From: Clostridia bacterium
GTDB taxonomy: Bacteria; Bacillota; Peptococcia; Peptococcales; BICA1-8
Direction of reading: 5' to 3'
Assembly (NCBI GenBank): GCA_030154225.1
Contig: JASKKI010000018.1
Location: forward strand, 1-37,010
Length of the DNA stretch: 37,010 nt
A model generated the notes under the pieces. It made no database searches and was not told the origin of the DNA. It saw only the letters and a program-made list of their open reading frames with translations. Position numbers and translations under genes: made by a program. Within the stretch, counting starts at the first letter, position 1. Each line of letters starts with the position of its first letter. Positions 14,815-35,328 of this stretch are shown piece after piece.

Positions 14815-14847
14815 AACAAAACACCATCCTTATTTATTATTAATTTA

Positions 14848-16119: not shown

Positions 16120-16139
16120 AATACCACCTCCTTAAATAA

Positions 16140-17150: not shown

Positions 17151-18433
17151 TTCAAGTCCCTCTCCTTTTGTTTTAAAATTTCTGCTCCATGACAAAAAAC
17201 ATTTCTGGAACCAAAACCACCTGCTTTGGTAATAATACTTAATCCATTTAATACTCCACCAACAATTTTACCCAGAGGAACACCAGGTTCTATTTCTTTT
17301 TGAACCTCTATACCTTCAGCTTTTAAAACTTCTAATAATTGAAGGGCAGTGGTACCTCCAGTTACCATTATTCCTGCTATATTTACTTTCCCCAGAATAC
17401 TTCCCATAAACTTTTGCAAGCCTTGGGAAATGCTATTTGCTATTTCGACTCCACTTAATCCCATCCTTGTTCCTTCAGACTTAGCCAATTCAACATCACT
17501 GGCACTTTGGGAAGTACGAATTACTAAGTCCTCCCCATCTTTTAAGATATTAGTGGCTTCTAAAGCCAAGTCCTTTAAAACACCTTCAGAATAATGCAAC
17601 AAATTCTGCCAGGGAATATATATTTCTTTTACTCCAAATTTCTTAATCATCTCATCAACTTGCAAATTACTGTTAGGATGTACACTACCAATTACAGTAA
17701 GAACAGGAGGCTTTTTTTCCTTAACAATATGTTTCTCCTGTCTTAGCATGGCTGCCGATAAACCTGCCGAACCGACAAGAATATGTGGTAAATGTATTTT
17801 AGTACTTATGGCAGCAAGTACATCAAGGTGTTCATCTTCAATTGCATCGGCAATAAATAAACAAGGACCGTTCTTAACTTTTTCCAAAATGTACTCACTT
17901 ATTACTGCAGAACCTTTTTCGATAATTTGTAAACTAATATGTTCTACAGTTAGGCTTGTTTGTTTACGTAAATAACCGGGTAAAAACCCTTCTGTAATAG
18001 GTGAACCAGGGTCTTTAGCCATAGGTGTGTGATGAAGTAATCTGCCATCAACCAGTAAATATCCACCCAGTCCTATCCTTTTATTTTGTGGATAAGCAGA
18101 ACAAATCAGGGCAAATTTAAATCCCAATTCTTCTAAAATTACTTCCAATTCTGCCCCTATGTTCCCTCTCCAGGTAGAATCAATTTTTTTATAAATATTA
18201 ATATTATTAAATTTTTTAAGATGCCTGCATACCTGTTTCGCCTTTTCTTTAGCGTCTAAAGGAGATGTATCACGAGAATTAGTTGTAATAGCTATAGTAT
18301 TAAACTGATCACTTACAGAGGCTAAGTTATTTGTTTTATTTAATACAATTGTTTTATAACCAAAATTACTGAATTGAACCGCTGTATCACAAGCACCACT
18401 TAAGTCATCAGCTAAAATTATAAATTTCAGCAC
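17147..18433 (-). CDS. dtnK: DUF1537 four-carbon acid sugar kinase (DtnK/OtnK family)
   Basis: 428 residues from GTG at 18433 with GGAGGTG upstream. The N-terminal substrate domain starts IILADDLSGACDTAVQF, the signature of the YgbK family, followed by AITTNSRDT and YKKIDSTWRGNIGAEL. The C-terminal nucleotide domain contains VIGSVHPNS, MVTGGTTALQLL and GVPLG, then TKAGGFG near the end. The family phosphorylates C4 acids such as D-threonate, D-erythronate or 3-oxo-tetronate at O4. The ATGA overlap with pdxA2 suggests the two act in sequence. Exact stereochemistry of the substrate cannot be read. 17 bases after ilvD. Confidence 0.92.
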   Translation of the reverse strand: MLKFIILADDLSGACDTAVQFSNFGYKTIVLNKTNNLASVSDQFNTIAITTNSRDTSPLDAKEKAKQVCRHLKKFNNINIYKKIDSTWRGNIGAELEVILEELGFKFALICSAYPQNKRIGLGGYLLVDGRLLHHTPMAKDPGSPITEGFLPGYLRKQTSLTVEHISLQIIEKGSAVISEYILEKVKNGPCLFIADAIEDEHLDVLAAISTKIHLPHILVGSAGLSAAMLRQEKHIVKEKKPPVLTVIGSVHPNSNLQVDEMIKKFGVKEIYIPWQNLLHYSEGVLKDLALEATNILKDGEDLVIRTSQSASDVELAKSEGTRMGLSGVEIANSISQGLQKFMGSILGKVNIAGIMVTGGTTALQLLEVLKAEGIEVQKEIEPGVPLGKIVGGVLNGLSIITKAGGFGSRNVFCHGAEILKQKERDLK

Positions 18434-18450
18434 CAGTTCACCTCCGGCTA

Positions 18451-20124: not shown

Positions 20125-20147
20125 TAAAATCCACCCCTTTGTTCATT

Positions 20148-20179
20148 ATTATAAAACAGTGATTTTTATTACTGAATAA
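20148..20179 (-). promoter_or_regulatory. Promoter and putative IclR operator of the ilvD operon
   Basis: Minus strand TTCAGT (20176-20171), 17-bp spacer, TATAAT (20153-20148). The -35 lies inside TTCAGTAATAAAAA (20176-20163), a 14-mer also found exactly upstream of iclR. The site is contained in the inverted repeat TTATT-CAGT-AATAA. Confidence 0.65.
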
Positions 20180-20280
20180 TAATTCTATTTTTATCCAGAT
20201 TATCCTTCTATGTTTTTGAAAAATATAAAATTTTTATAAATTGTTTTAATATTTTTCAATTTAATTTTAAATATAAAATA

Positions 20281-20306
20281 AAACACAGCCCTAATGAACT
20301 GTGTTT
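20281..20306 (-). terminator. Terminator after the aspC-like gene
   Basis: 8-bp perfect stem AAACACAG/CTGTGTTT with a 10-base loop, followed by T-rich sequence on the minus strand. It separates aspC from the ilvD operon. Confidence 0.85.
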
Positions 20307-20319
20307 TAATATAATCCTT

Positions 20320-21513
20320 TTATTTTATCTCCACTACAAAATCCTTTAACAATTTCATGCCTTGTTTAATAGTTTCCAAGGAAGTTGCGTAAGAGAATCT
20401 CAAAAAGCCCGGAGAACCAAAAGACGAACCAGGAACAGCTACTACAAAATAATTTTCTAAAAGCATCTTGGCAAAAGTTTCATCACTATCAATAGTTTCT
20501 CCTTTATAAGTTTTACCAATAAAATTTGAAACATCAGGGAAGGCATAAAATGCACCTTTAGGAGTTCTACAACTTATTCCTGGTATTTCATTTAAAGCCT
20601 TAACAATATATTTTCTCCGTTCATCAAATTCTTGCCTCATTACTTCTAATCCATCCTGTGGACCTAATAAAGCTTCTATACTAGCCTTTTGAGCAATTGA
20701 ATTAGGACCAGAAGTTGCATGACTCTGAAGAGAATCCATGGCTTTAATAATTTCTTTATTACCGGCAACATACCCTATACGCCAACCGGTCATAGCATAA
20801 GCCTTAGAAACACCATTAAAAGTTAAGGTTAATTTTTTAATTTCTTCTCCCAAACTAGCAAAACTTACAAAGTTAAGTCCATCATAAACCAGTTTTTCAT
20901 ACATTTCATCGGAAAAAACATAAATTTTATGTTTTAAAACTACTTCCGCAATTGCTTTTAATTCTTCTTCTGTATAGACAGAACCTGTTGGATTAGAGGG
21001 ACTGCATAAAATTAAAACTTTTGTCTTATCACTTATAACACTTTCTAGTTGCTGTGGTGTTACTTTAAAATCATTATCACTAGTTGTTTCTAGAAAGACA
21101 GGCTTACCATCGGCAATTTTTACTACTTCAGGATATGTAACCCAGTAGGGAGCAGGTATTATTACTTCATCACCTGAATCAACCATTGCCATAATAGCAT
21201 TAAAGAGACAGTGCTTCCCCCCATTGGAAACCATCACTTCATTAGGTGCATAATCTAAATTATTATCCCTTTTTAGTTTTTCACAAATGGCTTTTCTCAG
21301 ATCCATTGTTCCCGGGGATGGAGTATAACGGGTAAAGTTTTCTTCGATTGCTTTTATTCCTGCTTCTTTAATGTTTTGTGGCGTATCAAAATCAGGTTCC
21401 CCCACTTGAAATTCTAATACATTTTTACCTTCTGCTTTTAATGCTTTAGCTTTAGCCATTAACTCCAGGGTGGCCGATGGTTCGATTACCATTACTCTTT
21501 TTGCTAATTTCAT
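20320..21513 (-). CDS. aspC: Class I aminotransferase (aspartate aminotransferase-like)
   Basis: 397 residues from ATG at 21513 with AGGAAGAGG upstream; a TTG six codons earlier has no spaced ribosome site. PLP-fold type I motifs: FQVGEPDFDTP, NGGKHCLFNA, PAPYWVTYPE, LCSPSNPTGSVY, FSDEMYEKLVY, SKAYAMTGWRIGY (PLP lysine in SKAYAM) and the C-terminal FLRFSYATS arginine. This is the AspC/PatB subgroup I-gamma type, cytosolic, exchanging amino groups between aspartate (or others) and 2-oxoglutarate. It stands between folT and a terminator, not fused to the ilvD operon. Specificity uncertain. Confidence 0.9.
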   Translation of the reverse strand: MKLAKRVMVIEPSATLELMAKAKALKAEGKNVLEFQVGEPDFDTPQNIKEAGIKAIEENFTRYTPSPGTMDLRKAICEKLKRDNNLDYAPNEVMVSNGGKHCLFNAIMAMVDSGDEVIIPAPYWVTYPEVVKIADGKPVFLETTSDNDFKVTPQQLESVISDKTKVLILCSPSNPTGSVYTEEELKAIAEVVLKHKIYVFSDEMYEKLVYDGLNFVSFASLGEEIKKLTLTFNGVSKAYAMTGWRIGYVAGNKEIIKAMDSLQSHATSGPNSIAQKASIEALLGPQDGLEVMRQEFDERRKYIVKALNEIPGISCRTPKGAFYAFPDVSNFIGKTYKGETIDSDETFAKMLLENYFVVAVPGSSFGSPGFLRFSYATSLETIKQGMKLLKDFVVEIK

Positions 21514-21610
21514 TTTTCCTCTTCCTTTCAAAATTCATTTGTTTATATTTTACAAGCAAATATTAGTAATTTAAATAGTAAATCTTATATATTATAAAGA
21601 GTCTATAGAT

Positions 21611-22138
21611 TTAATGGACTAAGGCACGATGCGTACTGAAAATATTTACCCTCTTATGCAATATTATAAGGATAAAATTCATTACAGTAACATTTATCAA
21701 AAAAGATATTAACCTTGGTAAAAAAATCACTTTATAAGGTATGCCAAATAAAATTTTTAAAAAATACGGAACCAAAAACATACTTATTATTAAGTGAGTA
21801 ACCACAATGGAAAAAATGATTCGATATTGATTAAGTTTTTCTTTTTTACCGATTAATAAGGGAGGTAATATCCCGTTTAAGGCAGAAGTAAGGGTAAAAT
21901 GGGGCATATATGCTCCACCCGGGCTTAAAAAATAGCCTATAATATCAGCTAGTGCACCTACTCTAGCTCCTTGAATAACCCCACTACGCAAACCTGCTAA
22001 TATTATTGGCATGGTTCCAACCCCTATTCGAACACCATCCACTCCACCAATTGATACTTTAACACTTAAAAATCGAGTTAATATAACACTTAAAGCAATT
22101 AAAAGTGCACCTTCAACCAGAGTTCTGCTATATCTCAT
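21611..22138 (-). CDS. folT: ECF transporter S component, folate type (FolT)
   Basis: 175 residues from ATG at 22138 (GAGGTGAC 7 bases upstream; an upstream in-frame ATG at 22159 lies before that site). Six hydrophobic segments and the S-component pattern are seen: LVEGALLIALSVILTRFLSVKV, VRIGVGTMPIILAGLRSGVIQGARVGALADIIGYFLSPGGAYMPHFTLTSALNGI is abbreviated here to its key parts RIGVGTMPI, GALADIIGYFL and PHFTLTSALNG, which match the FolT subfamily. It captures folate at the membrane and shares the EcfA/A'/T energising module, not encoded here. Its position next to fhs, a folate-dependent enzyme, supports the assignment. A hairpin separates it from fhs. Confidence 0.82.
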   Translation of the reverse strand: MRYSRTLVEGALLIALSVILTRFLSVKVSIGGVDGVRIGVGTMPIILAGLRSGVIQGARVGALADIIGYFLSPGGAYMPHFTLTSALNGILPPLLIGKKEKLNQYRIIFSIVVTHLIISMFLVPYFLKILFGIPYKVIFLPRLISFLINVTVMNFILIILHKRVNIFSTHRALVH

Positions 22139-22174
22139 ATCTGTCACCTCTTCAACCATAAAAAAATTTTTTAA

Positions 22175-22213
22175 ATTTTATGCGCCTATCCATAATGAAT
22201 AGACGCATAAAAT
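22175..22213 (-). terminator. Terminator between fhs and folT
   Basis: 10-bp perfect arms ATTTTATGCG (22175-22184) and CGCATAAAAT (22204-22213), extended by CTAT/ATAG around one mismatch, then T-rich on the minus strand. It starts right at the fhs stop, so folT depends on read-through or its own promoter. Confidence 0.8.
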
Positions 22214-22214
22214 A

Positions 22215-23894
22215 TTAGAATAAACCGGTAATTTTACCACTATTATCTATATCAATTTTTTCAGCGGAAGGAACTTTAGGTAATCCGGGCATAGTCATTA
22301 TATCTCCAGTTAAAACTACAATAAATCCTGCCCCTGCTGAAACTTTTACTTTACTTATACTTACTTTAAAATCTGTAGGAGCACCTAATTTAGTGGGATC
22401 ATCTGAGAATGAATACTGGGTTTTAGCCATACATATGGGTAGGTTGCCATAACCTAATTCTTCTAATTGAGAAATTTCTTTCAAAGCACCTTTGGAGTAT
22501 TCCACTCCTACACCACCATAAATTTTAGTAACAATTGTTTCAATTTTTGACTTAATACCTTTGTCAACTTCATAACTAAAGTTAAAGTTATTTGTTCCTT
22601 CTTCAGCTAACCTGATTACTTCTTTGGCTAACTCTAGACCACCTTCTCCACCTTTAGCCCATACTTCTGACAATGCTACATTAACACCCATTTCCTTACA
22701 TTTGGTATATACCAGTTCTAATTCTTTTTCTGTATCTGTTGGGAACCTGTTTATAGCTACTACTGCTGGTAGACCAAATACTTTAGTTACATTATGAATA
22801 TGTCTTAAAAGATTAGGTAAACCTTTTTCCAGAGCAGCTAAATTTTCTTGCCCCAATTCTGCTTTTGGTGTACCACCGTGATGCTTCAAAGCTCTAATGG
22901 ATGCAACAATAACTACCACGTCAGGCTGCAAACCCGCCATGCGGCATTTAATATCTATGAATTTTTCCGCTCCTAAATCTGCACCAAAGCCGGCTTCTGT
23001 TACCGTATATTCTCCAAGTTTTAGAGCCATTCTTGTGGCCATAACACTGTTACAACCATGGGCAATATTGGCAAATGGTCCACCATGGATAAAGGCCGGA
23101 GTATGCTCTAAAGTTTGTACTAAGTTAGGTTTAAGAGTATCTTTAAGCAATGCTGCTAAAGCACCTTGAGCATTTAAATCAGCAGCAGTTACCGGTTTAT
23201 CATCATAGGTATAGCCAACTACTATTCTAGATATTCTTTCTTTCAAGTCCTCGATATTTTTTGATAAACAAAGTATAGCCATGATCTCCGAAGCTACCGT
23301 GATATCAAAGCCATCTTCTCTGGGTACTCCGTTGGCTTTACCATTTAAGCCATTAACTATATAACGAAGCTGTCTATCATTCATATCTACTACCCGTTTC
23401 CAGGTAATTTTTCGTGTATCTATTCCCAATTTATTACCCTGGTGAATATGGTTATCTAATAAGGCAGCCAACAAATTATTTGCTGTACCGATGGCATGAA
23501 TATCACCTGTGAAATGAAGATTTATATCTTCCATAGGAACTACCTGGGCATATCCACCACCAGCGGCCCCACCTTTTACACCAAATACAGGACCTAATGA
23601 TGGTTCTCTTAAAGCAATTACTGTTTTTTTGCCAGATTTTGTTAAAGCATCTCCTAAACCTACAGTTGTTGTTGTTTTTCCTTCTCCCGCCGGTGTTGGG
23701 TTTATAGCAGTAACTAAAACAAGTTTGCCATTGGGCTTATCTTTTAAATCTTCTAAAAGCTTATAATCAATTTTAGCTTTATACTTACCATAATTCTCCA
23801 CATAGTCATCTGGTACTCCTAGTTTCTCTGCAATTTCATTAATAACTTCTAGCTTACACTCCTGGGCAATTTCAATGTCACTCTTAAATGTCAT
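22215..23894 (-). CDS. fhs: Formate-tetrahydrofolate ligase
   Basis: 559 residues, full length, AGGAGGAG before ATG. Motifs: the P-loop [75 protein letters not shown] and the C-terminal [11 protein letters not shown]. It activates formate with ATP onto tetrahydrofolate, giving 10-formyl-THF; it is the entry of the methyl branch of the Wood-Ljungdahl pathway and also works in purine and amino acid fermentation. It lies 51 bases after iclR, probably co-transcribed, and before folT. Fhs alone does not prove acetogenesis. Confidence 0.98.
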
Positions 23895-23945
23895 TTTTTC
23901 TCCTCCTTAAAATATATTGTTGAGGGTACGTTAAGCTCTAAAGAA

Positions 23946-24710
23946 TTAACCTTTGTACCCTAGGTTTCGCGAAATCGTTAAAGCTGTGGCCTTTACTGCT
24001 TCAATTATCTCCGTTAATTTTTCACTACTAACTCTTGTGGAAGGAGCTGAACAGCTAAAAGCTCCAATTACTTCTCCTGTATAATTTCTAATAGGTGCAC
24101 CTATACAACGAACACCCAACTCAATTTCTTCCATATCCAAAGCGTAACCTTTTTCTTTTACCAATTCTATATGTTCACGAAGTTTTTCTGGATCTGTTAT
24201 AGTATTAGGTGTATACTGTTTTAGAGGCTTAGTAAGTTCTGCTTCCTGCTGTTCTTCGGGCATATAAGCTAGAATAGCTTTACCGACAGAAGAGGCATGT
24301 AAAGCAACTCTCTTACCAACCTGAGTAATGTTTACAATACTTCTGGCACTTTCTACTTTATCAACATAATAAGCTTCTCCTCTATTAAAAATAACAAGGT
24401 GTATGGTTTCATCATATTTTTCACATAATTCTTCTAAGAAAGGTCTGGCTACTGTTCTAACATCCAATCTGTTTTGTACATGTTGGCCTAATTCTAATAA
24501 TTTAAGTCCTAAACAGTATTTTCCGTTAGGTCTTTTATCAACATAACCTTTTTCAAATAAGGTATTTAACAAGCCATAAGTTGTACTTTTATTTAAGCCA
24601 ATGAGTTTACTTATTTCAGTTACTCCTAGTTCTTCATGATTACTAAAAACTTGTAAGATAGATAAAGCTCTATCAACGGATTGTACTATTACCTTATTAT
24701 TTTTAATCAT
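23946..24710 (-). CDS. IclR-family transcriptional regulator
   Basis: 254 residues. An N-terminal winged helix (SVDRALSILQVFSN, VTEISKLIGLNKSTTYGLLNTLFEKGYV, about 10-65) is followed by the IclR effector domain (ELCEKYDETIHLVIFNRGEAYYVDKVES, LHASSVGKAILAY, LGVRCIGAPIRNYTGEVIGAFSCSAPS). The family senses small carboxylic acids in this domain. It is upstream of fhs and likely autoregulated: two near-identical sites lie 24-58 bases upstream of its start, and one of them recurs at the ilvD promoter. I infer control of the C4-acid operon and of fhs. Whether it represses or activates is not decidable here. Confidence 0.92.
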   Translation of the reverse strand: MIKNNKVIVQSVDRALSILQVFSNHEELGVTEISKLIGLNKSTTYGLLNTLFEKGYVDKRPNGKYCLGLKLLELGQHVQNRLDVRTVARPFLEELCEKYDETIHLVIFNRGEAYYVDKVESARSIVNITQVGKRVALHASSVGKAILAYMPEEQQEAELTKPLKQYTPNTITDPEKLREHIELVKEKGYALDMEEIELGVRCIGAPIRNYTGEVIGAFSCSAPSTRVSSEKLTEIIEAVKATALTISRNLGYKG

Positions 24711-24734
24711 TAACTCACCCCCCAGTTATTTTTT

Positions 24735-24767
24735 TATATTACCGAACGTAGTTTTTTATTACTGAAT
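24735..24767 (-). promoter_or_regulatory. Tandem putative IclR sites upstream of iclR
   Basis: On the minus strand TTCAGTAATAAAAA (24766-24753) is followed exactly 20 bases later by TTCGGTAATATAAA (24746-24733), a two-helical-turn direct repeat. The first is identical to the site in the ilvD promoter. Confidence 0.6.
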
Positions 24768-24859
24768 TTATTTTTAAATTATTCTTTTTCAAAAGTAAAA
24801 ATCCTTTTATTTTTTTTGTAATTTTTGAAAAATTTATTAATATTCTTTATAAGAATTAA

Positions 24860-24895
24860 AGAGAGCCGAAACCCTAGAGAGGTTTTCAGCTCTTT
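24860..24895 (-). terminator. Terminator overlapping the end of the class III aminotransferase gene
   Basis: Arms 24863-24873 and 24881-24892 pair with one bulge; T-rich sequence follows on the minus strand. Its 5' arm includes the stop codon of the gene. Confidence 0.82.
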
Positions 24896-26259
24896 TTATA
24901 AATATGTTTCACATTATCAAAGGCAAGTTTTATAAAACTTTGACTTTGATTAAAAATTTTCTCCAAAGCATAAACCAGCTTGTCTAAATACTGGTAACTA
25001 ATATTTAATGGAGGTTCTATTCTTATTACATTTGGATTATTTAATGTATATGCAGTTATAATATTATGATCATTTAATAATTTTCCAGCTACCAGTGATG
25101 CAAAATATTCATTGGCAAGATCATCCAATTTACCACCAGATATTGTGTTAAGGATACCATTGTTTGCACTTTTCAATTCGAGCCCAATCATAAGACCCTT
25201 TCCTCGAACCTCTTTAATTATAGGATATCTATTTTGTAGTTCTTTCAATTTATTAATTAAGTACTCACCTTTTTCATAAGCTTGCTGAGGTAGGTCTTCA
25301 TTAATGATAGCTTGTAAAGCTGCAACTCCAGCTGCTGCTGCATAGGTATTACCACCAAAAGTAGATGTGTGCAGTAACGATTTTTCCATACCTCCATAGG
25401 CTTTATCATGTATCTTTTCAGTAGTTATGTAGGCACCAAGAGGTGCTATTCCTCCACCTAAAGATTTAGCTAGGCACATTATGTCTGGCACTACTTCTTC
25501 ATGTTCACAAGCAAACATTTTTCCCGTTCTACCCAAACCTGTTTGTATTTCATCAATAATTAACAGAGTATCATATTTTGTACATAATTCTCTTGCCAAT
25601 TTTAAATAACCTGTAGGAGGAACAATTATACCACCTTCACCCTGAATACATTCTACAATAAAGGCTGCAGTATCATTGCTTTTTAATTTTTGTTCCAAAC
25701 TTTCAATATCACCAAATGGAATAGATTGGCAACCGGGTATTAAAGGTTGAAAATGTTTTTTGTATTTTTCTCTACCTGTTACTGATAATGCCCCCAGTGT
25801 TTTACCATGGAATGATCCTTCACAATAAACTATTTTTTCTTTCCCAGTTGCAATACGAGCTAGTTTTAAGGCCCCTTCTACTGCTTCTGCACCACTATTA
25901 CAGAAAAAACTCCTTCGCAGTTCACCTGGCGTTATTTGAGCAAGGTTTTTGGCTAATACCGCCGGTAGTACCCCTAAAGAGGCTTGTAAAATGTTGGGCA
26001 GTTTTTTTACTTTTTCCACTGCAGCTAAAACCTCGGAATGATTATGACCTAAATTTAAAGCACCGTAACCACCTAAAAAATCAATAAATTCCTTACCTTC
26101 TTTATCTTTAATTATACTACCTTCAGCATATGTATAAACTTTATCAAACCCAATTAAGCCCATTATTGAAACTAATCCCGGATTAAGATATTCCTTATGT
26201 AATTTTTTAGCTTCTTTCTCCGACAATTCCAATGCTTCATCAATAGTAGTCAAGCCCAT
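24886..26259 (-). CDS. patA: Class III aminotransferase, putrescine aminotransferase (PatA/YgjG) type
   Basis: 457 residues from ATG at 26259 with GAGGTG six bases upstream; an in-frame TTG at 26280 lies before that site. It resembles E. coli YgjG along its length: LNPGLVSI, EFIDFLGGYGALNLGHNH, SFFCNSGAEAVEGALKLAR, SFHGKTLGALS, IQGEGGI, LLIIDEIQTGLGRTGKMFACEHE, and the PLP lysine in CLAKSLGGGIAPLGA, then HTSTFGGN and GTLNN-like YTLNNPNVIRIEPPL. The family moves amino groups between diamines (putrescine, cadaverine) or omega-amino acids and 2-oxoglutarate. It has its own promoter and terminator, so it is a single-gene unit beside an AruI-like operon. Exact amine substrate unknown. Confidence 0.88.
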   Translation of the reverse strand: MGLTTIDEALELSEKEAKKLHKEYLNPGLVSIMGLIGFDKVYTYAEGSIIKDKEGKEFIDFLGGYGALNLGHNHSEVLAAVEKVKKLPNILQASLGVLPAVLAKNLAQITPGELRRSFFCNSGAEAVEGALKLARIATGKEKIVYCEGSFHGKTLGALSVTGREKYKKHFQPLIPGCQSIPFGDIESLEQKLKSNDTAAFIVECIQGEGGIIVPPTGYLKLARELCTKYDTLLIIDEIQTGLGRTGKMFACEHEEVVPDIMCLAKSLGGGIAPLGAYITTEKIHDKAYGGMEKSLLHTSTFGGNTYAAAAGVAALQAIINEDLPQQAYEKGEYLINKLKELQNRYPIIKEVRGKGLMIGLELKSANNGILNTISGGKLDDLANEYFASLVAGKLLNDHNIITAYTLNNPNVIRIEPPLNISYQYLDKLVYALEKIFNQSQSFIKLAFDNVKHIYKKS

Positions 26260-26310
26260 TTCAATCACCTCATGCAACAAATATTGGCAATTATTTACAA
26301 CTATTATTTG

Positions 26311-26339
26311 ATTATACTATACTCCGATTTATTTTGCAA
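26311..26339 (-). promoter_or_regulatory. Promoter of the patA-like gene
   Basis: Minus strand TTGCAA (26339-26334), 17-bp spacer, TATAAT (26316-26311). Confidence 0.82.
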
Positions 26340-26359
26340 TTAGCAGAACACTCTTTGTA

Positions 26360-26402
26360 AAAAAACAGGACCCAAGTGTATTATAAACAAATGGATCCTG
26401 GC
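26360..26402 (-). terminator. Terminator after the betaine transporter operon
   Basis: 9-bp stem (26366-26374 with 26392-26400, one G-T pair) followed by seven Ts on the minus strand. Confidence 0.85.
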
Positions 26403-26431
26403 TTTATTAGCCTTTATAAATAGGAATTTTT

Positions 26432-27403
26432 TTATTTAATTAAACCTATTTCTTTTAAGAATTCTTTAGCAATCTGGTTGGGATCGCCGCCTTCATCATA
26501 TTTATAATTTAAACTAGACATAGTTTCTTCATTAATCATACCACTTACTTTTTCTACGATTTCCAACAACTTGGGATATTTTTCTAAAGTATCCATACGT
26601 AGAACATAAGCGGCACTATAGTCTGGGAAGAAATGTTTATCATCTTCAAGCATTACTAAGTCCAGTTTTTTGATCCTGGAGTCGGTGGAATAGGCACTGA
26701 TAACATCCAGCTGCTTATTGGCAATGGCTTGATACATTAAAGAATATTCCATAGGCTTAACTTCTTTAAATTTAATTCCATAGGCTTCAGACCAACCTGG
26801 ATAAGCATCTGGACGAGTATCAAAATTATTATCCCCACCCAGTACCCATTTAGGAGCATATTCTTTTAAATCAGAAGCTTTTTTTAGATTATATTTTTCA
26901 GCTGTTTCTCTTCTCACAGTCATTACATAAGTATTATTAAAACCTAAAGGTTTAGCCCAGGTAAAGTTAAATTTCTTTTCAAAACCTTCCTTAACCCTTT
27001 TAAAAGATTCTTCTTTACTTAAATTAGGGCCTTCATAACGTAATATGCCTGTTAACTGGGTACCGGTCCAAGTTGGGTAAATATCCAGTTCTTTTTGAAC
27101 CATAGCCTGGTGTAAAACTGAAGAACCGGCAAACTCAGTACTGGTTTCCACATTTAATCCTGTATATTCTTGGATTAAATGCTTGGCTATATGGGCTAGA
27201 ATAATTGACTCATTTACAGTTTGAGCACCTACTTTAATTTTTCCTTCATAGTTCATTGGGTCATCTGTTTTTTTATCTTCAGCACTTTCTTTTTTAGGTT
27301 CTTCCTTAGGAGTTTCCCCTTTCTGACCACAGGCAACAACACTAAACAGCAAACTAACAATCAATAAACTAATAATTAACCACTTACCATATTTTCTTGA
27401 CAA
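26432..27403 (-). CDS. opuCC: Glycine betaine/carnitine/choline-binding lipoprotein (OpuCC/OsmF type)
   Basis: 323 residues from TTG at 27403, overlapping the permease gene by 28 bases. A lipoprotein signal (basic MSRKYGKW, hydrophobic core, lipobox VVAC at about 22-25) is followed by a charged linker of E/K. The mature part is the type II OpuAC/OsmF fold: IKVGAQTVNESIILAHIAKHLIQEYTG, STEFAGSSVLHQAMVQKELDIYPTWTG and YQAIANKQLDVISAYSTD. It delivers quaternary-amine-type solutes to the membrane complex from outside the cell. Substrate is inferred from the family; its genomic link to amino-acid enzymes could mean another amine ligand. Confidence 0.88.
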   Translation of the reverse strand: MSRKYGKWLIISLLIVSLLFSVVACGQKGETPKEEPKKESAEDKKTDDPMNYEGKIKVGAQTVNESIILAHIAKHLIQEYTGLNVETSTEFAGSSVLHQAMVQKELDIYPTWTGTQLTGILRYEGPNLSKEESFKRVKEGFEKKFNFTWAKPLGFNNTYVMTVRRETAEKYNLKKASDLKEYAPKWVLGGDNNFDTRPDAYPGWSEAYGIKFKEVKPMEYSLMYQAIANKQLDVISAYSTDSRIKKLDLVMLEDDKHFFPDYSAAYVLRMDTLEKYPKLLEIVEKVSGMINEETMSSLNYKYDEGGDPNQIAKEFLKEIGLIK

Positions 27404-28119
27404 TTTTCTTCCATCTCCTCTCTATTGATCTTTTCTAGTTTTTCAGCCTTTCTGGCTAACCTCATAGCCCTATTTTTCGGACTATAATATTCCTGAACCA
27501 TTTTTAAACCCTGATCAGCAAATAAAGCTAAAACAGTGGCGGGTAGTGCTCCTGCAAAAACAACCTCATACCGGATTGAAGCAAGACCAGAAAATATAAG
27601 TTTACCCAAACCGCCTCCACCAATAGCAGCAGCTAAAGTTGCCGTTCCTATTATCCATACCGTTGCTACACGCATCCCTGCAATAAGTACAGGTCTAGCT
27701 AACGGTAATTGAACTTTAAATAAAATCTGCATTTCTGTCATACCCATTCCTCGAGCAGCTTGTACCAGGGAAGGTGGTACACTTTTTATTCCAGTATAAG
27801 TATTTTGTAATACCGGAAGTGCGGCATATAAAACTAAAGCACAAATAGCATTTTTATTACCGATACCAAGGGGAAATATTAAAAAGGCAAGTAGTGCTAA
27901 ACTGGGAATTGTTTCAAAAATATTAGCTAATCCAATGGCATATGGAGTAAGTTTTTCGTTTTTAGTAAGATAAATTCCCAAGGGAACACAAATGATTATT
28001 GTAATACCCAATGCTATTAAAGATATGTAAATATGCTGCCAAGTTAAAAACAAAATACGGTCATAATTTTTAGCTACAAATTTATAGAGAAGCTCCATAA
28101 AAGTAGGATCACTATTCAT
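27376..28119 (-). CDS. opuCB: Betaine-type ABC transporter permease
   Basis: 247 residues from ATG at 28119; AAAGGAG sits nine bases upstream, whereas a GTG at 28128 abuts the site. Five to six membrane helices and the EAA loop (AARGMGMTEMQILFKVQLPLARPVLIAG is quoted in part: ARGMGMTEMQILF) that couples to the ATPase. IPSLALLAFLIFPLGIG and GGGGLGKLIFSGLA are typical of ProW/OpuCB. Only one permease is encoded, so a homodimer is likely, unlike the two-permease OpuC of Bacillus. The C-terminal 35 residues are highly charged and overlap the next gene. Confidence 0.92.
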   Translation of the reverse strand: MNSDPTFMELLYKFVAKNYDRILFLTWQHIYISLIALGITIIICVPLGIYLTKNEKLTPYAIGLANIFETIPSLALLAFLIFPLGIGNKNAICALVLYAALPVLQNTYTGIKSVPPSLVQAARGMGMTEMQILFKVQLPLARPVLIAGMRVATVWIIGTATLAAAIGGGGLGKLIFSGLASIRYEVVFAGALPATVLALFADQGLKMVQEYYSPKNRAMRLARKAEKLEKINREEMEENCQENMVSG

Positions 28120-28158
28120 AAAATTCACTCCTTTATCCGATTACAACTCATAAGTAAA

Positions 28159-29280
28159 TCAACTTATTTTACGTTGCAGCCTGCTGATAGTAAGTCGGGC
28201 TATTCCGTTATGGGTAACTACTCCTAAAAAAATATTGTTTTCATCCAGAATAGGAACAGGTAGATCTCTGTCAGCTAACATTTCTGCCGCATCTCTTAAT
28301 GTAGCCTCTTCAATATACAATTTTCTCTCTAGTCTTACAGCTTCCTTAATATACCCTCCTAGTTTTGCTACCTTTTTAATATCGGGTACGATAGCCATTC
28401 CCAACCATTTTCCATTCCTATCAACTACTTGGGCTGATTCCGGACCTATATCCTCTAAATGATTCAAAACTAAACTTGCTTTAGTATCTGGTAATACCTT
28501 TAGACCCGGTTCTTCAATAATTATATCTATTGGAGCTTCCGGAGAAATCTTAGCAAGCCGCTCTTCACCAATAAAGGCTTTAACAAAATCATTAACAGGG
28601 TTATTTTTCAGCTCACTGGGTGTATCAATTTGTTCAACTCTACCCTGGCGCATAATTACAATTCTATCAGCTAATTTTAAAGCTTCATCTATATCATGGG
28701 TAACAAAAATGATTGTTTTCTTTAATTTTTTCTGTAATTCTAAAAGTTCGTTTTGCAGTCTATCTCTACTAATAGGATCAAGTGCCCCAAAAGGTTCATC
28801 CATTAAAACAACCCTAGGCTCAACAGCTAAAGCCCTTAACACACCTATTCTCTGCTGCTGCCCACCACTTAACTGGTCAGGAAGACGATATTTGTATTGA
28901 GCTGGATTTAAACCAGCCATTTCTAGAAGTTCATCAACCCTTTTATCAATTTTGTTTTTTTCCCATTTATGTAAACGGGGAACTATTCCAATATTTTCAG
29001 CAACAGATAAATGGGGCATTAAAGCGATTTGTTGAATAACATAACCAATTCCTCTTCGCAATTTTACGGGGTCAACAGTAGTTATATCATTTCCATCAAC
29101 ATAAATTTTACCTGCAGTACACTCTTCCAAACGATTAACCATTTTTAAAGTTGTCGTTTTACCACAACCACTGGGACCTATTAAAACTACAAATTCTCCT
29201 TCTTTTATTTCTAAATTAAGATTGTTTACAGCTACTGTTCCATCATCATATACCTTACGGACATTCTCGAAAATTACCAT
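28159..29280 (-). CDS. opuCA: Betaine-type ABC transporter ATPase with CBS pair
   Basis: 373 residues. Walker A GPSGCGKTT (about 36-44), Q-loop YVIQQIALMPHLS, signature LSGGQQQRIGVLRAL, Walker B VVLMDEPFGALDP and switch His in IIFVTHDIDEA. After about 250 come two CBS motifs (KLYIEEATLRDAAEMLADRD and LPVPILDENNIFLGVVTHNG), which in OpuA/OpuC sense ionic strength or nucleotides. It powers uptake with the permease and binding protein downstream. It follows hisC by 32 bases in the same operon. Confidence 0.94.
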   Translation of the reverse strand: MVIFENVRKVYDDGTVAVNNLNLEIKEGEFVVLIGPSGCGKTTTLKMVNRLEECTAGKIYVDGNDITTVDPVKLRRGIGYVIQQIALMPHLSVAENIGIVPRLHKWEKNKIDKRVDELLEMAGLNPAQYKYRLPDQLSGGQQQRIGVLRALAVEPRVVLMDEPFGALDPISRDRLQNELLELQKKLKKTIIFVTHDIDEALKLADRIVIMRQGRVEQIDTPSELKNNPVNDFVKAFIGEERLAKISPEAPIDIIIEEPGLKVLPDTKASLVLNHLEDIGPESAQVVDRNGKWLGMAIVPDIKKVAKLGGYIKEAVRLERKLYIEEATLRDAAEMLADRDLPVPILDENNIFLGVVTHNGIARLTISRLQRKIS

Positions 29281-29312
29281 CCTACTACCCCTTTCATTTA
29301 CTCGTAACTACA

Positions 29313-30440
29313 CTAAATCGATACGACAGATGATTCGTAATATTTAGTAAGTATATGTTTTAAAGTACTAATAAATTTATTACATTCATCAGTAGTACCA
29401 ATAGTAACTCTAATACTATTAGGTAAGCCCCAACTAGAACAAGGACGAACAATAATTCCATATTCTAACAGGAAATTTGCCAGTTCCTGACAATCATAGG
29501 GGGTACTAAAGAATACAAAATTTGTCTCTGAAGGTATGACTTCAAATCCCAAGGAGCTTAATTCACTAATAACTCTTTTTCTATCATTAAGAATGGTCTT
29601 TAAAGATTGTTGATAATACTCATGATCTTTCTTTAAAGTAGCAGTGGCACCGGCTAAACCCACACGATTGGCATTAAAAGGTTCACTAACAGTGTCAATA
29701 ACAGTAATCATTTCCGGGGAAGATATAGCATAACCTATTCTTGCACCGGCTAAGCCAAAAGCTTTAGAAAAAGTTCTTATAGCAATTACCGATTTCCCCT
29801 TCTGCACTGCTTCTATAATTTCAGGTAATTTAGTTCTTTCTGCAAATTCCGCATAAGCTTCGTCCAAAATTATCCAGGTATTATCAGGTAGTTGACCAAG
29901 TAAATCATTAAAATCATTTTTATCAAAAATTGTTCCTGTAGGATTGTTAGGATTACATAACCAAATTAATTTTGTTTTAGGTGTAAGAGCTTTTTTAATA
30001 GCTTCCAGGTCAATTACATATTTATCATTCAAAGGAGTCTCTATAACCCTGGCTCCCATCAGTTTTGAAATTTCACTATATAAACCATATGTTGGATGAG
30101 GAATAATAACTTCATCACCATCTTCAATAAAACATTTACCTATGTTTTGCAACATACCCTCTGCCCCATGAGATATTGCAAAATGTTGAACAGTTAAACC
30201 ATATCGTTTACTTAATAACTCTTTAATTTCTACAAAAGTAATATCCGGGTAGCAATTTAATCTGGTTAATTCTTGTTGCATAGCTTCTAAAGCACCGGGA
30301 AAAGGTGCATAAGCATTTTCATTAGATCCTAATTTTATTACCTCCTTTAAACCCTTTTCCCTTTTAACCTCTTCTATCGTTTTTCCGGGAACATAGGGAT
30401 TAACTGTCATTACTCCTCTCCGTAATCCTTTTATATTCAT
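29313..30440 (-). CDS. hisC: HisC-like aminotransferase
   Basis: 375 residues. Motifs of the histidinol-phosphate aminotransferase branch of PLP fold type I: VNPYVPGKTIEEVKRE, LGSNENAYAP, ISHGAEGMLQNIG, PHPTYGLY, WLCNPNNPTGTIF, ILDEAYAEF, the PLP lysine in RTFSKAFGLAGARIGYA, and the final IRVTIGT arginine. No other histidine genes are near, and it is tightly placed between the AruI-like decarboxylase (19 bases) and the betaine ATPase (32 bases). I infer that it makes the 2-oxo acid used by the decarboxylase. Amino donor and substrate unknown. Confidence 0.88.
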   Translation of the reverse strand: MNIKGLRRGVMTVNPYVPGKTIEEVKREKGLKEVIKLGSNENAYAPFPGALEAMQQELTRLNCYPDITFVEIKELLSKRYGLTVQHFAISHGAEGMLQNIGKCFIEDGDEVIIPHPTYGLYSEISKLMGARVIETPLNDKYVIDLEAIKKALTPKTKLIWLCNPNNPTGTIFDKNDFNDLLGQLPDNTWIILDEAYAEFAERTKLPEIIEAVQKGKSVIAIRTFSKAFGLAGARIGYAISSPEMITVIDTVSEPFNANRVGLAGATATLKKDHEYYQQSLKTILNDRKRVISELSSLGFEVIPSETNFVFFSTPYDCQELANFLLEYGIIVRPCSSWGLPNSIRVTIGTTDECNKFISTLKHILTKYYESSVVSI

Positions 30441-30459
30441 TAATTCTCAACTTCCTTTC

Positions 30460-32079
30460 TTAAGCTTTTACTTCTATTATTACCGGCTCATTTAACAAAA
30501 AGGCTTCTTTTAAAACATTCTTCATCTCCGGAGGAGAACTAACAATCACACCTTTAAGGCCATAAGCTTCTGCTAATTTTATAAAATCAGGATTTTTATG
30601 ATTAACTGCAATTTTTTGACCGGGGTGACGTTTTTCTTGATGACGGCGTATTTCTCCAAAACCACCATCATTCCAAATAATTATAGGTAATGATATATTT
30701 TCCTGACAGGCAACAGCTAATTCCGGCAATGTAAATTGGAATCCACCATCACCGGCTAAAACACATACTTTAGTATGAGACTTGGCAATCTTAGCCCCTA
30801 TGGCAGCAGGTAAAGCAAAACCTAAAGTTCCAAAACCTACAGGATGAATATAAGTTTTAGGTTGTCTGCAAGGATATTCACTTAATCCAATATAAGCAGG
30901 AGTAGTCATATCAGTAAACAATATTCCATCAGCAGGTAGAGAGCTGCGGATTGCCGCTAGCATTTCTTTAATAAATTCAACGCCTTCATAAACTCCTGTG
31001 GTTTCAGGTAATTTAATAGTTGTAGTTTTCTTTAAATCTGCTATTTTCTTTAAAACATTTGGATTTGTTTCCTCATTAGTCTTTACTTTATCTAATAAAA
31101 AAGCTAAAACCTCTAAAGCATCTCCTTTTAAACCTATATCTGCACGATAATTCCTATTAAAATTAGCAGCATCAATATCAATTTGAATTAATTTTCCACC
31201 TATATTTAAAGGCTGTTCCCATAGATCCGTGGGAGAAATCTCAGTACCAATGGCAATAACCAAATCTGTAGTTTTTAAAAATTCTCTAACTACAGGAAAA
31301 TGAATCCTCGTCCCTAAGCATAAAGGATGTCCTTCATCTACTATCCCTTTACCGGCGGCTGTCTGAATTACCGGTGCAGATATTTTCTCTGCCAACTCAA
31401 GAATTTTTTCTCCTGCCTGCCAGCCCCCCCCACCAACAATAATAAGGGGAAAATTTGCTTTATTGATTTCATTTACAGCAAGATCTAGTAAAGCTTTATC
31501 TATTAAAGGAAAGTTGGATTTAGCTAAATCTTCACCTTTAAAATTAATAATCTCAGCTCTATCTGTATAACCATGTAAAATATCCATAGGTATCTCTACA
31601 TGGACCGGACCTGGGCGACCAGAAAGGGCAAGCTGATAAGCTTCTTTTATATATAAATCAATGTTTTCCAAAGACATTACCGTTCTACTTTCTTTGGCAA
31701 CAGATTGGGTTAAAATTGTTGAATTTTTTAATTCATGTAAAAAGCCTATCCTTTGATTCAAAGCCCAAGTAGGAAGTTGACTGGAAATAACAACCATAGG
31801 TATAGAATCGTGATAGGCTTGACCCATAGCAGTTATTATATTTGTTAATCCCGGACCTGTAATAACTAATGCTATACCAGGTTTACCTGTAACCCTAGCA
31901 TAACCATCCGCCATATAACCAACACCTTGCTCATGTTTAGCAGTTACATGTTTAATGGAACTATGAATTAATGCATCATAAATATCTAAATTATGTATTC
32001 CTGGTATTCCAAAAACAGTATCTACATTAAGATCTTCTAAAGCTTTTACAACAATGGTGCCACCTGTTACTTTATTCAT
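30460..32079 (-). CDS. Thiamine-diphosphate 2-oxo acid decarboxylase, AruI-like (5-guanidino-2-oxopentanoate decarboxylase type)
   Basis: 539 residues with the three-domain acetolactate-synthase fold. The N-terminal Pyr domain contains VFGIPGIHNLDIYDAL and the catalytic Glu50 in KHEQGVGYMADGYARVTGKPG; the middle domain has VGGGGWQAG; the C-terminal PP domain has AGDGGFQFTLPELAVA and WNDGGFGEIR (metal/TPP motif). IPGIHNLDIYD and HEQG..FMADGYAR-like text are closest to AruI, which decarboxylates 2-oxoarginine to 4-guanidinobutanal. It is too divergent in context (no acetolactate small subunit, no ilv genes) to be an acetolactate synthase. First gene of the operon with hisC and the betaine transporter. 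Confidence 0.82.
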   Translation of the reverse strand: MNKVTGGTIVVKALEDLNVDTVFGIPGIHNLDIYDALIHSSIKHVTAKHEQGVGYMADGYARVTGKPGIALVITGPGLTNIITAMGQAYHDSIPMVVISSQLPTWALNQRIGFLHELKNSTILTQSVAKESRTVMSLENIDLYIKEAYQLALSGRPGPVHVEIPMDILHGYTDRAEIINFKGEDLAKSNFPLIDKALLDLAVNEINKANFPLIIVGGGGWQAGEKILELAEKISAPVIQTAAGKGIVDEGHPLCLGTRIHFPVVREFLKTTDLVIAIGTEISPTDLWEQPLNIGGKLIQIDIDAANFNRNYRADIGLKGDALEVLAFLLDKVKTNEETNPNVLKKIADLKKTTTIKLPETTGVYEGVEFIKEMLAAIRSSLPADGILFTDMTTPAYIGLSEYPCRQPKTYIHPVGFGTLGFALPAAIGAKIAKSHTKVCVLAGDGGFQFTLPELAVACQENISLPIIIWNDGGFGEIRRHQEKRHPGQKIAVNHKNPDFIKLAEAYGLKGVIVSSPPEMKNVLKEAFLLNEPVIIEVKA

Positions 32080-32307: not shown

Positions 32308-32342
32308 AAAAAGAGAAAGCTTACCACTCGGTAAGCTTTTTC
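32308..32342 (-). terminator. Terminator after the CODH-like gene
   Basis: 10-bp stem AAAGCTTACC/GGTAAGCTTT with a 4-base loop, then a CT-rich and T-rich tract on the minus strand. The gene is therefore a single transcription unit. Confidence 0.88.
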
Positions 32343-32346
32343 TTCG

Positions 32347-34260
32347 TTATAATCCAAGCTCAGAACGTTTTTTATTAATATGTTCTGCAATAGACTGGGC
32401 AACTTCAGTAGGGTCATCACCTAAAGCAACTTTACCGCCAGTTAAGCCCTCTAAATCTTGTGTTAATAATTTAGCCAGTTCAGTACCACCGGTAACGGGA
32501 GGTATAGGAGATAAATGGGTATATAGGCCATAGGCAAGGGCAAATAAACCATCTATAGTTGCCTTTTGCTCCATCCACTCAGGGGCACTAACAGCAACAG
32601 GTAATTGGGATGAATCTACGCCTAAAGCATCAGCTATTGCCGTTACCAGCATAGAAATTCTTCCAGTATCAGTACAAGTTCCAAAAGGTAAAACCGGCGG
32701 AATACCTAATCCAGTACAGACTTCTCGCAATCCTTTTCCTGCATATTGTAGTGCATCCATATTACACATACCAGCAACTTCCAGTCCATGACAGCCACAT
32801 CCACCGGCTATAACTAAAATATCACGTTTTACAAGTTCTTTAACCAGATTAACAGTCATCCAATCATGGGGCCCATTTTTTAATGTTGTACAATTAACAA
32901 TAGCAACTACACCTTTAACCTTTCCTGCTTTAATTACTTCAAGTAAAGGATCTAATTTTCCTCCTAAAGCTTTTAAAACTGCTTCCGTAGAAAATCCTGC
33001 AATTGCTTTAGTTTTCTTTTGAGGGACATATGGTTTTACCTGTTCTTTTCTTACTGAAAAATTGGCCAAACCCCATTCTAACAATTTTTTGGCCATCTCT
33101 TCTGCTTCCGGTGGCTTATAATCCAGGTTTTTATCTACAAGAGGAATACGAACCAAGTCATTGACAGAAACAAGGGTAACTTTATATTTTTCTGCATAAG
33201 GAGCTAAGTAAGGTGGAGAGCAGTTTTCATCCATAGCAAATACATCTACTGTTCCTGTTGCCAATAACGGCTCAATTGCCAACCAATTCCCGATATGACC
33301 GGTAAAAACTTCATCCATTTCAAAACGCTGTAATATTTCCTGTCCTGTTTCTATCGAACCGATTACCCTAATTCCTTTTGCACCTATTTGTTTAGCTTTT
33401 TCCTGCCAATCTGGTTTTTTTGCTTCGTATATAGTTGCAATACCCATCCAGGGTTCATGTCCATTAAATACAATATTTACATAATCAGGGTCCATTACAC
33501 CCAAATCCATATCTACTTCATGGGGCATAGGAGTACCAAATAAGATATCCTGGCACATTTCCAAAGGTAATTGAGCACCATAGATACAAGCTATTCCCAA
33601 CCTCAGTGCCTTACGGGCAAGGGATATATAATCACCATCAACATTTGTTAAACAACTGGCTGTTGCATCTTTGATCTCATGCAAAACACCGGCAGGAAAG
33701 ATTGCTAAATCCTGCCAGACCTTTTGTCTTGCTTTAGGTGCAAAGGCTTGAATAACTCTACTTGGTTCTTGATAATCATTGGATAATTCTGCAATGAAAT
33801 AATTCGCTAGCTTTTCGGCATCTTTATTTATATCTCCTGAAGTTTCAATACCTAGCTTTTCACACATAAAGTACAGCTTATCTTTATCTGTAATCTTAAA
33901 TGGTGTTTTGCCCTGAGCAGTAGACCTCAAAGTACTGAAAGCTTCAAATGCGTGGTGAGTATATGTAGATGTTCCCATTACATTTCTTAGGAGCATATCT
34001 CGCATTGCCATGGCATCAGGCGTAATACCACAGGTACCTAGATTGGCTCCAGCTTTTTCAGAAATCCTACAAGGTCCGTTACTGCATAGTTGGCAACTGA
34101 CTCCAGCTTCACAAAAATTACAACGAATTTTATCCTGTGGATCAAACCTATCAAATACGTTGCTCATTCCATCAGGAACTAGTCTTTTTTCATACATTTC
34201 CTGTACAGAATCATGATAACTAATACGACCATCAATACGATGTGGAACTGGTTTACCCAT
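32347..34260 (-). CDS. CooS-family protein with altered active-site cluster (CooS-V/hybrid-cluster-like)
   Basis: 637 residues, AGGGAGG before ATG. The CODH scaffold is clear: B-cluster cysteines C56-x2-C59-x4-C64-x12-C77; C-cluster region with H268 (NGHEPW), C347 (DENCSPP), C457 (VNCTTL), C488 (GGCGC), C529 (GTCTDTGR) and K566 (MEQKA). The site of the cysteine usually found in GxCCTGNE instead reads GSIETGQE (301-308), so one canonical Ni,Fe-cluster ligand is missing and a Glu (E304) is close by. The D-cluster motif also differs (C47-x2-C50; S55 where the second Cys is expected). CooS-V of Carboxydothermus lacks the same cysteine, holds an Fe-S-O hybrid cluster and does not oxidise CO. No cooC, cooF or acs genes are adjacent. 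Confidence 0.9.
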   Translation of the reverse strand: MGKPVPHRIDGRISYHDSVQEMYEKRLVPDGMSNVFDRFDPQDKIRCNFCEAGVSCQLCSNGPCRISEKAGANLGTCGITPDAMAMRDMLLRNVMGTSTYTHHAFEAFSTLRSTAQGKTPFKITDKDKLYFMCEKLGIETSGDINKDAEKLANYFIAELSNDYQEPSRVIQAFAPKARQKVWQDLAIFPAGVLHEIKDATASCLTNVDGDYISLARKALRLGIACIYGAQLPLEMCQDILFGTPMPHEVDMDLGVMDPDYVNIVFNGHEPWMGIATIYEAKKPDWQEKAKQIGAKGIRVIGSIETGQEILQRFEMDEVFTGHIGNWLAIEPLLATGTVDVFAMDENCSPPYLAPYAEKYKVTLVSVNDLVRIPLVDKNLDYKPPEAEEMAKKLLEWGLANFSVRKEQVKPYVPQKKTKAIAGFSTEAVLKALGGKLDPLLEVIKAGKVKGVVAIVNCTTLKNGPHDWMTVNLVKELVKRDILVIAGGCGCHGLEVAGMCNMDALQYAGKGLREVCTGLGIPPVLPFGTCTDTGRISMLVTAIADALGVDSSQLPVAVSAPEWMEQKATIDGLFALAYGLYTHLSPIPPVTGGTELAKLLTQDLEGLTGGKVALGDDPTEVAQSIAEHINKKRSELGL

Positions 34261-34283: not shown

Positions 34284-34402
34284 TTTGTCATTAGCATTTC
34301 CTACTAAAAAATCTATATTCATTTTAAAAAAAACAAAATGACGTTCCTGACTGAAGTTGTCATTGTTATTTTTCTCCAAAAAAAAACCTCATTTCTTGAG
34401 GA
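34284..34402 (-). promoter_or_regulatory. Upstream region of the CODH-like gene with repeated TGAC/GTCA elements
   Basis: AATGAC or its complement occurs three times (about 34288-34296, 34334-34340 and 34360-34367); two of them form an inverted repeat, and TGAC-N7-GTCA lies within it. A short hairpin CCTCA/TGAGG (34387-34401) followed by nine Ts ends whatever is transcribed from further upstream. These look like binding sites for a dimeric regulator; none is assigned. Confidence 0.35.
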
Positions 34403-34538: not shown

Positions 34539-34890
34539 TTAAATCAAGTTCAGTTTTATAGAAATGAGTCGTACTTTCGGCTGAAAGGGATAAATAGGAT
34601 CAATAGATACTACACAGGCAATTTCATCATTATTTAAACAAATATAAGTTCCGTCAGGGTAAGGTACAATTATTAACTAAAATTAGTTACTACTTTATAT
34701 TTAAACAGTGTATCACCAGACTTCATTAGTATTTCATAAACTTCATGAGCTGGAATTGCCTCCTTATAGACCCTATCTGTAGTCATACCATTATAAACAT
34801 CTGCTATGGCGCAAATAGCTACCATTTCATAAATCTTGTCTCCTTTTAATCCCTGGGGACAAGTGGGAAGTTTCAATACAAAATCCCCTT
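34539..34890 (-). pseudogene. HD-GYP domain remnant
   Basis: The minus strand reads PQGLKGDKIYEMVAICAIAD and VYNGMTTDRVYKEAIPAHEV, the second half of an HD-GYP c-di-GMP phosphodiesterase domain, then stops at 34673. After a one-base frame change near 34675 it continues IVPYPDGTYICLNNDEIACV and VSIDPIYPFQPKVRLI, the usual tail of the family, to a stop at 34539. The N-terminal half with the HD and GYP residues is missing. Dead fragment. Confidence 0.82.
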
Positions 34891-35037: not shown

Positions 35038-35126
35038 TGGTGCCGGGGACCGGAATCGAACCGGTACGGGCTTTTGGGCCCGCAGGATTTTAAGTCCTGT
35101 GCGTCTGCCAGTTCCGCCACCCCGGC
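35038..35126 (-). tRNA. tRNA-Leu (anticodon TAA), copy 2
   Basis: 89 bases with encoded CCA. Acceptor GCCGGGG/CCCCGGC, long variable arm (CGGGCCCAAAAGCCCG), anticodon loop CTTAAAA giving TAA. The mature sequence is identical to the copy at 35240-35328. Confidence 0.97.
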
Positions 35127-35239: not shown

Positions 35240-35328
35240 TGGTGCCGGGGACCGGAATCGAACCGGTACGGGCTTTTGGGCCCGCAGGATTTTAAGTCCT
35301 GTGCGTCTGCCAGTTCCGCCACCCCGGC
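35240..35328 (-). tRNA. tRNA-Leu (anticodon TAA), copy 1
   Basis: 89 bases with encoded CCA, class II variable arm, anticodon TAA. Identical to the downstream copy; the spacer between them (about 113 bases) is not duplicated. Confidence 0.97.

Follow-up and report, generated by a model that had tools for sequence, protein, structure and literature searches.

The gene considered here lies on the minus strand of a 37,010-nucleotide stretch of DNA from a Clostridia bacterium (contig JASKKI010000018.1 of assembly GCA_030154225.1; the whole stretch is referred to as the window), and it raises the question whether a protein that standard profiles name "CO dehydrogenase" (CODH) has anything to do with CO. 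The name has consequences, as counts of CO-using organisms become inflated when such genes carry it, and the genome from which the window stems would be called a CO oxidiser although it encodes neither a true CODH nor an acetyl-CoA synthase (ACS). An earlier note on this DNA, made from the letters alone, held that the protein lacks a cysteine ligand of the Ni,Fe C-cluster in the manner of CooS-V of Carboxydothermus hydrogenoformans (CooS-V_Ch), that the CODH name would probably be wrong, and that a redox or hydroxylamine/NO-related role was conceivable. The type itself is already published: structural group D-1 was defined by this exact residue set, with its likeness to the hybrid cluster protein (HCP) noted (Inoue et al. 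2019, PMC6344411), and the structure of CooS-V_Ch revealed a morphing [4Fe-3S-nO] cluster without Ni (Jeoung et al. 2022, PMC9311411). The same enzyme showed neither CO oxidation nor CO2 reduction, its NH2OH reduction was very slow (kcat 0.13 per s), and catalytic NO reduction went undetected (PMC9311411). The explanation that we consider best overall, with a probability of about 0.66, is that the window encodes a CooS-V-type, HCP-like reductase and not a CO dehydrogenase.

Gene and genomic surroundings

The open reading frame (32347..34260, minus strand) is intact, starts with an ATG preceded by a GGGAGGG ribosome-binding site, and codes for 637 amino acids. An intrinsic terminator with a 10-bp stem and a T tail lies directly 3' of it (32316..32339, minus strand), and a terminator-like hairpin with a T run is found upstream (34387..34401, minus strand). 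Given the former, the gene is predicted to be a transcription unit separate from the downstream decarboxylase gene (30460-32079). The neighbours are tRNA genes upstream and, downstream, a ThDP-dependent decarboxylase, an aminotransferase, and a glycine-betaine-type ABC transporter. An operon with these downstream genes was ruled out by the terminator together with a gap of 267 bp, and the decarboxylase is also not placed beside D-1 genes in relatives. Among the identified neighbours there is no CO-metabolism gene and none of those reported for group D-1 (zinc-binding dehydrogenase COG1063, HypA/HypB); the gene stands alone. A 91%-identical gene in Clostridiaceae bacterium BRH_c20a belongs to a neighbourhood common to both organisms, and this partial conservation argues against a binning accident as the origin of the window contig.

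Other features of the window were recorded as well. Two identical copies of a tRNA gene of 86 bases, Leu-like by eye, lie within 300 bases of each other (35041-35126 and 35243-35328), and a short open piece upstream of the D-1 gene (34673-34876, minus strand) resembles by eye the end of an HD-GYP phosphodiesterase, has stop codons after it, and gave no Pfam match. A catabolic-looking run (13954-32079, minus strand) includes KPHMT, a LarA-like racemase, PdxA, a kinase of the four-carbon acid-sugar type, IlvD/Edd, aminotransferases, an IclR regulator, formate-THF ligase, a ProVWX-type ABC transporter, and a ThDP enzyme resembling 5-guanidino-2-oxopentanoate decarboxylase, and is possibly a pathway for the uptake and breakdown of an amino acid or acid sugar. 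A T-box leader (6253-6473, minus strand) precedes a threonyl-type tRNA synthetase, and an L20 leader is situated at 4084-4219 (minus strand).

Active-site and electron-transfer residues

The protein was aligned with CooS-V_Ch (sequence taken from the phmmer alignment to 7B7Q), CODH-IV_Ch, and D. vulgaris CODH; all codons listed below are on the minus strand. The segment GSIETGQE (residues 301-308; 33337..33360) does take the place of G-x-C-C-T-G-N-E, as the earlier note had reported, and both cysteines are gone, with I303 and E304 in their stead, two residues that are invariant across the aligned D-1 sequences. No other cysteine fills the ligand position in the alignment; the site is occupied by Glu304 (33349..33351), the equivalent of CooS-V Glu295, which is a ligand of the hybrid cluster (PMC9311411), so that the proposed parallel with the ligand loss in CooS-V is borne out. 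The residues said to remain (H268, C347, C457, C488, C529, and K566) are all present: His268 (33457..33459) matches CooS-V His259, Asn346-Cys347 (33220..33225) match Asn337 and Cys338, Cys457 (32890..32892) matches Cys449, Cys488 (32797..32799) matches Cys480, Cys529 (32674..32676) matches the persulfide cysteine Cys521, and Glu564-Gln565-Lys566 (32563..32571) cover Glu556 and the conserved Lys. Beyond the residues listed previously, N346, E564, and Y100 also agree with the CooS-V type; Tyr100 (33961..33963; residue comparison with Table 2 of PMC6344411) occupies the place of the acid-base histidine of CO dehydrogenases (His93 of CODH-II).

The hybrid-cluster residue set (H268, E304, N346, C347, C457, C488, C529, E564, and K566) is therefore complete, and these residues do not vary among the relatives examined (82 sequences in one alignment, 27 in another). 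A Ni,Fe C-cluster requires five cysteines and one histidine, and this protein has Glu304 at the equivalent of Cys295. Sequencing or assembly error, pseudogene formation, or chance could be ruled out by the conserved ligands, by relatives identical at the site, and by the copy in BRH_c20a.

The D-cluster motif, previously described as altered, reads C47-x2-C50 (34111..34122) with Ser55, not C-x7-C. This is the described type III variant, which binds [2Fe-2S] in CooS-V, where it bridges the subunits (PMC9311411), and in D. vulgaris CODH; a damaged D-cluster is thus ruled out and the alteration is not a defect. The B-cluster cysteines C56-x2-C59-x4-C64-x12-C77 ([4Fe-4S]) are encoded at 34030..34095. 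The D. vulgaris (Nitratidesulfovibrio) enzyme (6B6V) has the same C-x2-C motif with [2Fe-2S] but, unlike the window protein, retains the C-cluster cysteine and the acid-base histidine and is an active CO dehydrogenase.

Relation to CooS-V and HCP

Identity to CooS-V_Ch (7B7Q) amounts to 63.3% over 624 aligned columns, with 36% to CODH-IV_Ch and 33% to D. vulgaris CODH. The best structure-sequence match was 7B7Q with 919 bits (next: 410), and an AlphaFold2 model of the protein (mean pLDDT 88, pTM 0.91) had the two CooS-V entries 7B7Q/7B9A as its top Foldseek matches (TM 0.97, rmsd 1.4-1.5, 62-63% identity). In an unrooted maximum-likelihood tree, all sequences with Glu304 formed one clade, D-1 (100/99), and the neighbouring branch has a cysteine at this site (L108, L116). 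D-1 splits into D-1a (100/100), in which the window protein groups with CooS-V_Ch, and D-1b (100/98). Sequence match, structure comparison, and tree all place the protein with CooS-V and support the suspicion that "CO dehydrogenase" is the wrong name.

All residues of the hybrid, B-, and D-clusters as well as the fold are common to the window protein and CooS-V (CHY_RS00160; 7B7Q/7B7T/7B95/7B97/7B9A), and the signature H, E, C, C, C, C, Y, K with a type III D-cluster matches the published table for group D-1 exactly. Hcp belongs to the same superfamily and has a similar ligand set; however, the window protein has the CODH fold with a bridging D-cluster, scores 42.2 bits with the HCP profile TIGR01703 (cut-off: 360.8), and is not an Hcp member. 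On residues, tree, and model taken together, we consider it almost certain that the protein belongs to the CooS-V type (group D-1) within the prismane/CODH superfamily, and that it is not a CO dehydrogenase is well supported.

Host genome and other D-1-only genomes

The window is contig C13 of a 2.68-Mb assembly that is 99.64% complete. Statements about this genome rest on profile searches, in which TIGR01702 retrieved the window gene and otherwise only a class III-sized HCP on contig C121; repeated searches yielded no second CODH-family gene, and ACS (PF03598) was absent. On these grounds, a part for some other gene of the organism in CO metabolism was ruled out, whereas C. hydrogenoformans has four true CODHs besides CooS-V. 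The HCP locus (L133; G000:C121:26000-40000) encodes a class III-sized protein of 440 aa with a ferredoxin directly after it, the C-terminal domain of which is partly repeated in the next ORF.

Among 398 genomes of the phylum (completeness at least 95%), 55 carried D-1a and 11 carried D-1b, one of the latter (G253) being counted on a fragment. The two groups were assigned by identity to the window protein (at least 57% for D-1a, 52-56% for D-1b), and for a subset of the 66 both the residues and the tree bore this assignment out. Most D-1 genomes in this sample also carry another CODH, and the CooS-V type has been stated to occur only beside other CODHs (Jeoung et al., PMC9311411). After a profile re-check of 20 genomes for other CODHs and ACS, 13 had D-1 as their only CODH-family gene and no ACS: G000 (the window genome), G021, G022, G002, G214, G088, G173, and G315 with D-1a, and G235, G031, G071, G197, and G104 with D-1b. 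Two of these, G173 and G315, are single-contig genomes; G250 (second fragment) and G313 (ACS fragment) were set aside from this count. The 13 genomes run counter to the published statement.

HCP (TIGR01703) was present in 292 of the 398 genomes overall, in 54 of the 55 with D-1a, and in none of the 11 with D-1b, a difference between the two groups (Fisher 1e-11) that is descriptive only, as the genomes are related. A search with PF03063 brought up nothing in the D-1b genomes besides D-1 and, in some, a true CODH; HCP-sized prismane proteins were found with the same profile in four of their class-mates devoid of D-1, one of which (G154) was confirmed as HCP by TIGR01703. As D-1b is one clade, its lack of HCP and its operon (see below) may reflect few evolutionary events. 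In one genome without intact HCP (G380), the D-1 gene adjoins a Crp/Fnr gene and a decayed hcp fragment; the fragment, beside a D-1b gene (L102:7149-7382), comprises 43 residues with 56% identity, is interrupted and frameshifted, and has lost the conserved Cys.

Operon context of D-1b

In nine D-1b loci from three families, an Rrf2-family gene lies directly upstream of D-1, and in seven of them a ferredoxin gene follows directly downstream; none was found downstream of the D-1b gene in L096, and L099 ends at a contig edge and is hence outside the seven. Besides the arrangement Rrf2 - D-1 - ferredoxin, nothing else in the flanks is common between the three families. Upstream of rrf2, all nine loci (L096-L100, L153-L156) have a TTGACA - TAAAAT promoter overlapped by a palindromic predicted operator, TATAGGACTAAAATAGTCCTGTA, with 0-1 mismatch in each. 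The operator core GACTRWWWYAGTC had a single match outside the nine loci in the 2.1 Mb of loci searched and equals the centre of the IscR type-1 consensus ATASYYGACTRWWWYAGTCRRSTAT (PMC6599224); the flanks differ. The Rrf2 protein has three conserved cysteines, and since it scores under both the IscR and the NsrR cut-offs, we infer rather than assign an Fe-S-sensing function. No common operator was detected upstream of D-1a genes (best core mismatch 4-7 of 15; also by eye); D-1a has no conserved operon, and 72 of 91 D-1 loci are standalone.

Over its N-terminal part, the D-1b ferredoxin shares 61-68% identity with the one found directly after hcp in the window's family (4/4 genomes, L133-L136). 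The other loci searched gave no comparable match apart from L095 and a gene fragment in L013, situated 9 kb from D-1; in L095 (G313), D-1 has as neighbours a Crp/Fnr gene and the gene of this ferredoxin in full length. Crp/Fnr genes near D-1 genes in general numbered 5 of 379 at distance 1-2 vs. 0 of 1060 further out, and this enrichment, made up of only five loci, is suggestive. It has been reported that hcp often shares an operon with frdX, which encodes a ferredoxin, and that links to HcpR (Crp/Fnr) or NsrR (Rrf2) are common (Rodionov et al. 2005, PMC1274295). The D-1b relatives have the same partners, i.e., an FrdX-type ferredoxin (labelled by position and domain make-up, not by comparison with a characterised FrdX) and an Rrf2 or Crp/Fnr regulator; an FrdX-type ferredoxin or HcpR/NsrR-type regulator is present around D-1b relatives, and the window gene itself has no such neighbours. 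In genomes without hcp, the D-1b gene is thus accompanied as hcp would be, which is circumstantial and the best available clue to the function of D-1.

Proposed function and competing explanations

Because the D-1b gene sits in an hcp-like operon in a clade without HCP, we think it rather probable that D-1 works like HCP, as a low-potential reductase that receives its electrons from ferredoxin and acts under nitrosative or related redox stress. D-1a nearly always co-occurs with HCP and has no conserved operon, so for D-1a this role would be carried over from D-1b by homology. By analogy with the structure of the 63%-identical CooS-V, the window protein would form a homodimer in which electrons pass from the D-cluster over the B-cluster to the hybrid cluster; reduction of the latter to [4Fe-3S] would shift the persulfide sulfur and open a channel, and a small oxidised molecule could then be reduced at very low potential at the hybrid cluster. 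The D-1b context points to ferredoxin as the putative electron donor, and the gene context to expression upon Fe-S, NO, or oxidant stress. In the window's organism, D-1 would be a second, lower-potential enzyme of the HCP kind beside the separate hcp-ferredoxin locus, outside CO metabolism. The reading of the earlier note, with a redox or hydroxylamine/NO-related role as a possibility, fits all tests made. Against an HCP-like role speak the undetected catalytic NO reduction by CooS-V and its very slow NH2OH reduction, which makes hydroxylamine an improbable substrate in the cell.

We hold it to be highly improbable that the protein is a genuine, if possibly slow, Ni,Fe CO dehydrogenase whose Glu304 stands in for the missing cysteine, much as certain clade B enzymes have Asp in place of a different cysteine. 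The equivalog cut-off of TIGR01702 (NCBIfam "CO dehydrogenase") is easily exceeded (832 vs. 478 bits), but proteins of the CooS-V type pass this profile too. Enzymes of clade B in which Asp/Glu takes the place of the second C-cluster cysteine count among the Ni-CODHs (PMC6344411), and genetics in Methanosarcina acetivorans, cited in the same paper, were read as possible involvement in CO oxidation; yet CooS-V_Ch, whose residues are the same, contains no Ni and is inactive on CO, and the C295E variant of CODH-II is reported to be Ni-deficient and without CO activity (both PMC9311411). The replacement of the acid-base histidine by Tyr100 and a genome without ACS, another CODH, or any C1-carbonyl context also speak against CO turnover. 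A redox-sensing or auxiliary protein for an active CODH of the same cell, as proposed for clade D from co-occurrence (eLife 2026, PMC13056359), would suit the majority of sampled D-1 genomes, which have another CODH, and auxiliary or redox-sensing roles are what that survey suggests. We consider it improbable: in the window genome and 12 others, two of them single-contig, D-1 is the sole CODH and ACS is absent, and as a general role it is already inconsistent with these genomes.

A low-potential reductase whose substrate is unrelated to nitrosative stress (e.g., a sulfur, selenium, or oxygen species or an organic N-oxide) deserves more thought, although we regard it as rather unlikely; the hcp-like context of D-1b would then mean only a common Fe-S stress control and a common ferredoxin. 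In CooS-V, the hybrid cluster has midpoint potentials ~300 mV lower than in HCP, which suggests another function (PMC9311411), the poor NH2OH activity and undetected catalytic NO activity of CooS-V point the same way, and the operator core resembles a site of IscR, which responds to Fe-S status. Against this stand the FrdX ferredoxin and Crp/Fnr neighbours, which are typical of hcp (PMC1274295), and the D-1b genomes without HCP. 

D-1 may represent a second hybrid-cluster lineage on the CODH scaffold, able to replace HCP and having taken the slot of hcp in D-1b, with D-1-only organisms using it wholly outside CO metabolism; we see the chances of this wider proposal as evenly balanced. For clade D, no clear pattern emerged from a survey of genomic context (eLife 2026, PMC13056359), and deletion of a clade D gene in Clostridium autoethanogenum reportedly had a mild effect in standard culture (PMC13056359); the D-1b operon, with its regulator, operator, and donor, together with its HCP-less hosts makes the question of CooS-V function testable.

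Direction of evolution

CooS-V has been viewed both as derived from CODH (Jeoung et al., PMC9311411) and as an intermediate through which class III HCP gave rise to CODH (Fujishiro and Takaoka 2023, PMC10502027). A tree with HCP as outgroup favoured neither a derived nor an intermediate position of D-1 (AU p = 0.35). N346, E564, and Y100 are already found in relatives that keep the cysteine (L107, L113, L115); within clade D, the Cys/Glu difference would therefore be one step in an HCP-like setting.

Two divergent proteins were encountered in the same set of loci. A D-1a protein placed beside Thermincola in the tree (L103:5436-7325; G159:C21:59435-61324), 68% identical to the Thermincola protein, is without all four hybrid-cluster cysteines (C347S, C457G, C488S, C529S) and without N346/E564, retains the D- and B-cluster cysteines, and has a long branch and an open frame of 654 aa; it is likely a cluster-less pseudoenzyme. 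A clade-D CODH from the window's family (L106; G020:C75:19883-21745) combines a type II D-cluster with Asp in place of Cys295, a separate loss of the same ligand.
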